From NCBI RefSeq assembly GCF_052324685.1, contig NW_027506905.1, positions 223,501-287,500 of the forward strand: a stretch of 64,000 nucleotides of DNA, given 5' to 3'. The stretch comes from Brachyhypopomus gauderio. Its lineage: Eukaryota; Chordata; Actinopteri; Gymnotiformes; Hypopomidae. Both the position numbers and the translations under genes were made by a program. The first letter of the stretch is position 1. The number at the start of each line of letters is the position of its first letter. Below, one piece after another: positions 3,101 through 3,799 of the stretch. The notes under the pieces were generated by a model, which had not been told where the DNA came from, ran no database searches, and saw only the letters and a list, made by a program, of their open reading frames with translations.

Positions 3101-3799
3101 TCTGTGAGCCCAGAAGGAGAAGGTTGTGTATGTAGTACCGAGCATTACCCACCTCACCACGGCTGCTCTCTCCTCACCCACCTCATTACCCACCTCACCA
3201 CGGCTGCTCTCTCCTCACCCACCTCATTACCCACCTCACCACGGCTGCTCTCTCCTCACCCACCTCACCACGGCTGCTCTCTCCTCACCCACCTCATTAC
3301 CCACCTCACCACGGCTGCTCTCCTCACCCACCTCACCACAGCTGCTCTCTCCTCACCCACCTCATTACCCACCTCACCATGGCTGCTCTCACCCACCTCA
3401 CCACGGCTGCTCTCTCCTCACCCACCTCATTACCCACCTCACCATGGCTGCTCTCTCCTCACCCACCTCATTACCCACCTCACCACGGCTGCTCTCTCCT
3501 CACCCACCTCACCACGGCTGCTCTCTCCTCACCCACCTCATTACCCACCTCACCACGGCTGCTCTCTCCTCACCCACCTCACCACGGCTGCTCTCTCCTC
3601 ACCCACCTCATTACCCACCTCACCATGGCTGCTCTCACCCACCTCACCACGGCTGCTCTCTCCTCACCCACCTCACCACGGCTGCTCTCTCCCGCTGCTC
3701 ATTCTCTCTCTTCAGGTCCTCTTTGCTCTTCTTTATCCGGGTCTCCCACAGAGCCTTGATGGAGTTCACCGTTCCAAAACACACTGTCACCCCAGTCAT
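162..3799 (-). CDS. lrrc39: lrrc39, leucine-rich repeat protein 39 (5' part only)
   Basis: Three coding exons on the minus strand are readable: 3799-3672 (start ATG at 3799), 516-411 and 318-162, with phases 2, 0 and 1 that join in frame (about 130 residues). The gene then runs out of the left edge. The first exon gives a start [19 protein letters not shown] with a basic, coiled-coil-like [13 protein letters not shown] stretch. The second gives [14 protein letters not shown] and [14 protein letters not shown]. The third gives [15 protein letters not shown] and [16 protein letters not shown], a leucine-rich repeat. All three align with my memory of human LRRC39, a myosin-interacting protein of the sarcomere M-band (family knowledge). 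Intron 1 holds an L2 LINE and a minisatellite that begins at the exon itself. The donor of the first exon is ambiguous (3672 or 3677); 3672 keeps the phase. Intervals 519-683 and 319-410 show only intron. Confidence 0.88.
684..3070 (-). mobile_element. 5'-truncated L2/Maui-type LINE with intact reverse transcriptase ORF
   Basis: An open frame of 542 codons (3024-1396) encodes the reverse transcriptase half of a non-LTR retrotransposon. It has a fingers/palm block ([17 protein letters not shown]), [41 protein letters not shown] and the catalytic [11 protein letters not shown] box. The C-terminal signature [15 protein letters not shown] is typical of the L2/CR1 group. The apurinic endonuclease half is missing. 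The frame stays open upstream of the ATG until a (TA)n tract at about 3050-3070, so the copy is 5' truncated. The 3' UTR runs from 1395 to about 684 and ends in a TTGATTGATTG-type tail next to an ATAAATAAAATTTGATTG stretch. It lies in sense orientation inside lrrc39 intron 1. The undamaged ORF suggests a young insertion. Confidence 0.9.
3143..3696. repeat. minisatellite with 29- and 41-bp units spanning the lrrc39 exon boundary
   Basis: About 16 copies of the junction CTCACCACGGCTGCTC (variants CCAT and CCACA) are arranged in units of 29 bp, or 41 bp when an extra ATTACCCACCTC segment is present. On the gene strand the unit reads GAGAGCAGCCGTGGTGAGG. The copy at 3671-3696 is the real 3' end of the first lrrc39 coding exon and its donor site. 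Low-complexity Ser/Pro/His reading frames across it are by-products of the repeat. Confidence 0.93.

Follow-up and report, generated by a model that had tools for sequence, protein, structure and literature searches.

The 5′ splice site in the repeat

When a tandem repeat takes in the end of a coding exon together with its 5′ splice site, two questions arise: at which copy is the exon spliced, and what does a change of array length do to the mRNA and the protein? Such a repeat was found in a 64,000-nucleotide stretch of Brachyhypopomus gauderio DNA (contig NW_027506905.1, positions 223,501–287,500), which was analysed as a whole and is called the window below. It lies where the first coding exon of a putative lrrc39 gene ends, and consists of 16 head-to-tail copies (3143–3692) on the minus strand, which is the gene strand.

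For positions 3143–3692, Tandem Repeats Finder returned periods of 41, 70 and 29, among others. As resolved by copy-by-copy analysis, the 16 units are of four lengths: eight are 41 bp, four are 29 bp, three are 24 bp (the partial last copy among them) and one is 27 bp. Counted from the exon, the order of the units is 29, 24, 41, 29, 41, 29, 41, 41, 24, 41, 27, 41, 29, 41, 41 and a partial 24; the GCAGC starts of the 16 copies descend from 3685 to 3166. With 16 head-to-tail copies of 24–41 bp, the array is a minisatellite in the usual sense (units of about 10–100 bp, many copies). The 41-bp unit corresponds to the 29-bp unit plus 12 bp, i.e. a second GAGGTGGGT. The gene strand of the array is G-rich, with a GC skew of 0.72.

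Copy 1 (3664–3692, minus strand) is the junction unit; it is 29 bp in length and does not differ from the 29-bp consensus. It was assigned by homology, and the exon end was placed by phase and donor score. With splicing at donor 3671, copy 1 would be composed of the last 21 nt of the exon (3692–3672) and 8 nt of the intron (3671–3664). Upstream of GCAGC, the homology between the exon copy and the 15 other copies covers seven bases (GGAGAGA) in 12 of them and four bases in the remaining three. These results agree well with a preliminary description of the locus, according to which the unit holds about 20 last exon bases plus the 5′ splice site and some 16 copies run into the intron. That description placed the repeat at 3143–3799; 3143–3692 is indeed repeat, whereas 3693–3799 is unique coding exon, from the ATG onwards.

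The array borders an open frame of 582 codons (1399–3144, minus strand), which encodes a LINE-type reverse transcriptase (RVT_1, E 4e-36, Pfam). The frame is in the same intron and on the same strand as the array and lies directly beyond it; seemingly, it is a 5′-truncated LINE that starts beside the array. In self-BLAST of positions 1–3142 plus the array (E 1e-3), the array itself was the sole match, and nothing within this segment appears to tie the array to a dispersed repeat. Rfam gave no match at the gathering score in the whole window.

Gene context

The first coding exon (3672–3849, minus strand) is predicted to be 178 nt in length, its acceptor and start being placed from sequence only. 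The acceptor CTCTCTTCCTCCATAG ends at 3850, the ATG is at 3799–3797, and the donor is GAG/GTGGGT with its G at 3671. From this ATG, the reading frame passes through the copy-1 donor to 516–411 and then to 318–162. On the basis of the frame, these two segments of the minus strand are the putative exon 2 (411–516; phase-2 acceptor TGTAG/G, donor AAG/GTGCTT with its G at 410) and exon 3 (162–318; donor TTG/GTTAGT with its G at 161), the latter encoding leucine-rich repeats (LRR).

In a PDB search with the joined exons 1–3, LRR proteins were matched within residues 57–131; among the best 60 of 97 matches, none was named LRRC39 and none extended over residues 1–56. A dbt-like branched-chain acyltransferase gene lies farther upstream on this strand, at 6.9–9.1 kb (Pfam: 2-oxoacid_dh, E 5.4e-22 and 6.1e-12; Biotin_lipoyl, E 1.2e-13). 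LRRC39 (Myomasp) is a neighbour of DBT and carries its leucine-rich repeats behind a short N-terminal region; the N-terminus of the predicted protein presumably resembles that of human LRRC39. The gene is a candidate lrrc39 on the basis of the LRR matches, the dbt-like neighbour, and the human sequence and gene order. The first coding exon end appears to be about five residues longer than that of human LRRC39. This would fit a repeat that has moved the exon end, but we place no weight on it. Among the matches listed in a literature search on lrrc39, none described a tandem repeat in the gene, which does not prove that none is described.

Two further features are located close to the exon start. 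One is a run of 16 G on the gene strand (3804–3819) in the putative 5′ UTR, four bases upstream of the lrrc39 start codon, which probably varies in length. The other is a donor at 4096 (GTG/GTAAGT, score 5.57), ending a candidate upstream exon with its own ATG; this exon probably belongs to the 5′ UTR, its ATG being an upstream start codon.

Donor-like sites in the array

Between 3692 and 3143, there are 77 GTs. As many as 55 of them score at least 2, and the same 55 are counted at a threshold of at least 3; each copy contains 2 to 4 of these sites. The earlier suggestion that every copy is a potential donor is thus borne out, with at least two donor-like sites per copy. The sites fall into five classes: GAG/GTGGGT (24 sites, including 3671; score 4.77), GTG/GTGAGG (13 sites; 4.1), TGG/GTGAGG (13 sites; 3.41), ATG/GTGAGG (three sites; 5.02) and TGG/GTGAGA (two sites; 3.02). 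By comparison, the score is 0.85 for the putative donor of exon 2, 0.26 for that of exon 3 and 5.57 for that of the candidate upstream exon. U1 pairing energies were computed independently of the score matrix. Pairing of the 55 sites ranges from −8.6 to −11.6 kcal/mol, with −10.8 to −11.6 kcal/mol for GAG/GTGGGT; the corresponding values are −14.0 for the consensus, −5.3 and −7.1 for the putative exon 2 and exon 3 donors, and −9.1 kcal/mol for the upstream exon.

The copy-1 donor is not the strongest of the array. The three downstream ATG/GTGAGG sites exceed it by score, nine sites (GTGGGTAA) exceed it by U1 pairing (−11.6 versus −10.8 kcal/mol), and 23 downstream sites are equal to it in all nine bases and in score. 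With some fifty similar donors, 24 of which are identical over nine bases, the locus offers a natural experiment on donor choice by the spliceosome.

Compared to the rest of the window, the density of these sites is very high. Outside 2600–4300, no 550-bp stretch has more than five sites (score at least 3) on the minus strand or more than four on the plus strand. In 1000 mononucleotide shuffles of the array, the mean was 4.5 sites and the maximum 13, versus 55 observed; when shuffled 70-mers were tandemised, 0 of 1000 reached 55. Base composition therefore does not explain the donor density.

An exon that ends upstream of the repeat, before about 3697, finds no support. Six GTs are present between the ATG and the repeat. 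The best scores 1.04, but it is in phase 0 and thus out of phase with exon 2, whereas the two phase-2 GTs score −4.16 and −2.87. Phase rules out the better of these GTs more firmly than score does, since the exon 2 and exon 3 donors themselves score low.

Reading frame across the array

The exon frame is closed in copy 2 by an in-frame TGA (3644–3646, minus strand), so that 51 of the 55 donor-like sites lie behind the stop. Four sites precede it, two of them in the wrong phase. We joined the seven exon-nearest donors to each of two exon 2 acceptors, 14 joins in all. Two joins were open: the first acceptor kept the frame with donors 3671 and 3647; with the second candidate acceptor (exon start at 508, other phase), none of the seven was open. 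Donor 3647 (GTG/GTGAGG, GT at 3646–3647 on the minus strand) is located in copy 2, 24 nt beyond 3671, and adds eight codons. Both frame-keeping donors found are thus predicted to lie inside the array. Depending on the inferred exon start, the exon would measure 178 nt via 3671 and up to 697 nt via the last donor.

Growth of the array

The array contains an internal duplication of seven units. Block A (3411–3656, minus strand) comprises copies 2–8 and is 246 bp in size, counted from GCAGC; its duplicate, block B (3167–3410, minus strand), comprises copies 9–15 and is 244 bp in size. The two blocks differ by two mismatches and two gap columns in 246, and the BLAST matches that reveal the duplication are 98.6% identical over 285 columns. 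Copies 1–15 (519 bases) carry four substitutions relative to the length-matched consensus, all four at the single CpG of the unit (G>A in copies 3, 8 and 10; C>T in copy 11), together with deletions of 5, 5 and 2 bases in three copies. The changes of copies 3 and 10 may be one change, shared through the block duplication.

Near-identity with substitutions at CpG alone is the pattern expected of a young methylated repeat. The block duplication, seen in one assembly, suggests that the array is unstable in length. A reasonable assumption is that either the splice junction seeded the array or the array grew into it. As the unit consists of the exon end and the donor, duplication at or reaching the junction, followed by unequal exchange, would give the observed picture; function is not needed.

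Comparison with known repeats

Similar arrays are known from human genes. The VNTR of ABCA7 intron 18 has 25-bp units and measures 592 bp (23.7 copies) in the reference; the first two bases of the repeat form the donor of exon 18, and the donor one unit downstream leads via a frameshift to a stop (PMC5954066). Alleles of 315 to 9711 bp were measured there, along with RNA data. In the same study, one unit is retained through the donor of the next unit at 2 ± 1% in the tested tissues, as we read it, with a frameshift; in BA10 samples, alternative transcripts, taken as a whole, were frequently in excess, mainly owing to exon 19 skipping (PMC5954066). ABCA7 and lrrc39 have in common that the donor is within the repeat and that the next-unit donor leads to a stop, for lrrc39 by prediction. 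Different from the ABCA7 repeat, which begins at the donor GT, the lrrc39 unit takes in 21 nt of coding exon, and the lrrc39 array is known from its sequence alone.

Human CBS possesses a 31-bp VNTR, c.1444_1467+7, of 16–21 copies (PMC2630376), which was placed at exon 13–intron 13 (PMC1395315). By its name, the CBS unit spans the junction with 24 exonic and 7 intronic nt, compared to 21 and 8 nt in lrrc39, and 16–21 copies compare to 16. The CBS units are stated to be always 31 bp, whereas lrrc39 mixes units of 24, 27, 29 and 41 bp and has a seven-unit block duplication; gene and lineage are also different. In human CBS, splicing is reported to take place at several VNTR copies; Lievers et al. 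(2001) is a further reference on this repeat. In anatomy, the predicted donor included, the lrrc39 array matches the ABCA7 and CBS kind, for which the precedents are human. It would be an added case, probably outside mammals, to the few donor-containing VNTRs described.

Tandem duplication of an AGGT segment can also give rise to an intron, as described elsewhere (PMC4974935), and the duplicated segment carries AGGT in lrrc39 as well (GAG/GTGGGT). Beyond the first 20 nt of the array, 93 AGs were examined; all have at most 5 of 15 pyrimidines upstream, versus nine at the acceptor of exon 2. With no usable acceptor among these 93 AGs, intron gain by AGGT duplication is not plausible here and was rejected.

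Probable splicing outcome and effect of array length

Taken together, the most probable explanation, in which we have reasonable though not full confidence, is that a young minisatellite has grown by unequal duplication over the end of the first coding exon, that the copy-1 donor is dominant, and that array length is mostly neutral. Single units and one seven-unit block would have been duplicated unequally, and the array would thereby have extended into the intron. Splicing would take place mostly at the exon-proximal donor 3671, the better-scoring of the two frame-keeping sites, while a minority of transcripts would leak to donors at least one unit downstream. Nearly all of these would run into the stop in copy 2, resulting in a 51-residue truncation or in nonsense-mediated decay. 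It is plausible that the downstream copies act as such decoy donors. Individuals are expected to differ in array length, and these differences would change the yield of correct mRNA modestly at most.

In experiments with duplicated donors, the intron-proximal copy is often favoured. Such a preference, if applied here, predicts mostly unproductive splicing and counts against dominance of 3671, as do the frequent excess of alternative transcripts in the ABCA7 BA10 samples and the second candidate acceptor of exon 2. In a survey of human and mouse alternative donors, use was bimodal, with a preference for the proximal site in some cases and for the distal site in others (PMC2423196). We expect the copy-1 donor to dominate, because the exon then stays at 178 nt instead of reaching up to 697 nt, and because one-unit retention in ABCA7, as we read it, is about 2 ± 1%.

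It is unlikely, but conceivable, that array length has a regulatory role: the number of competing donors would set the unproductive, stop-containing share of transcripts, and array length would tune lrrc39 dosage. The donor cluster has no equal elsewhere in the window, and 51 of its 55 sites lie behind the copy-2 stop, as such a role would have it. In human ABCA7, expression falls and skipping of exon 19 rises with longer arrays, but one-unit retention and exon 18 alternative splicing were unchanged with VNTR length (PMC5954066). The protein would be shielded, because a 29-bp and a 41-bp unit each move the frame by two, and dosage would be free to vary between fish; lrrc39 mRNA loss to the copy-2 stop would then be set by array length. 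However, a repeat seeded at a donor gives the same pattern without function.

We consider it very unlikely that the array reflects an assembly error at a simple repeat, with an inflated or collapsed copy number and a block duplication that is in fact a duplicated read path. The two seven-unit blocks are nearly identical and come from a single assembly, but they differ by 2 bases and a 2-bp gap, and unit lengths vary along the array; a pure copy artefact is therefore unlikely.

The preliminary description also proposed that array changes move the exon end in frame and alter the protein by adding Ala/Val/Arg-rich residues. Donor 3647 with its eight in-frame codons is of this kind, and the exon end, which appears longer than in human LRRC39, would fit. 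With the stop in copy 2, 51 of 55 sites behind it and 2 of 14 joins open, in-frame addition is mostly excluded. When arrays were simulated with 29 or 41 bp as the first unit, all 64 orders of either kind ran into the stop in copy 2, so the open protein cannot be altered by changes farther along. With a unit of 24 or 27 bp as copy 1, the frame would stay open into copy 3 or beyond: 48 of 64 orders reached a stop in copy 3 or 4, whereas 16 were stop-free within four units. These simulations indicated that array length hardly affects the protein unless copy 1 itself changes, and coding diversity is accordingly a highly improbable role for the array. They also yield a simple rule: behind a first unit of 29 or 41 bp, the frame ends in copy 2, and length farther along may vary without altering the open protein.

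An action of the array independent of splicing, in which numerous U1 sites of moderate strength close to the start of the gene would aid transcription or block early polyadenylation (a protective role of U1 described in PMC5499120), is suggested by the complementarity of the 55 sites to U1 and their pairing energies, but we give it hardly any credence.

Other features of the window

Of eight window frames compared with Pfam, six had a match, and frames 44193–44786 and 13077–13322 had no Pfam match. A second, simpler array of the CCACCAC type is present at 46562–46728. A single open frame at 50165–51220 encodes a Rhodopsin-family receptor (7tm_1, E 2.3e-23), which is, by gene order, perhaps gpr88. 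It is followed by Ig-like frames, of which 53152–53472 gave weak Ig and ICAM_N matches; these frames past the receptor presumably belong to a gene that is perhaps vcam1.
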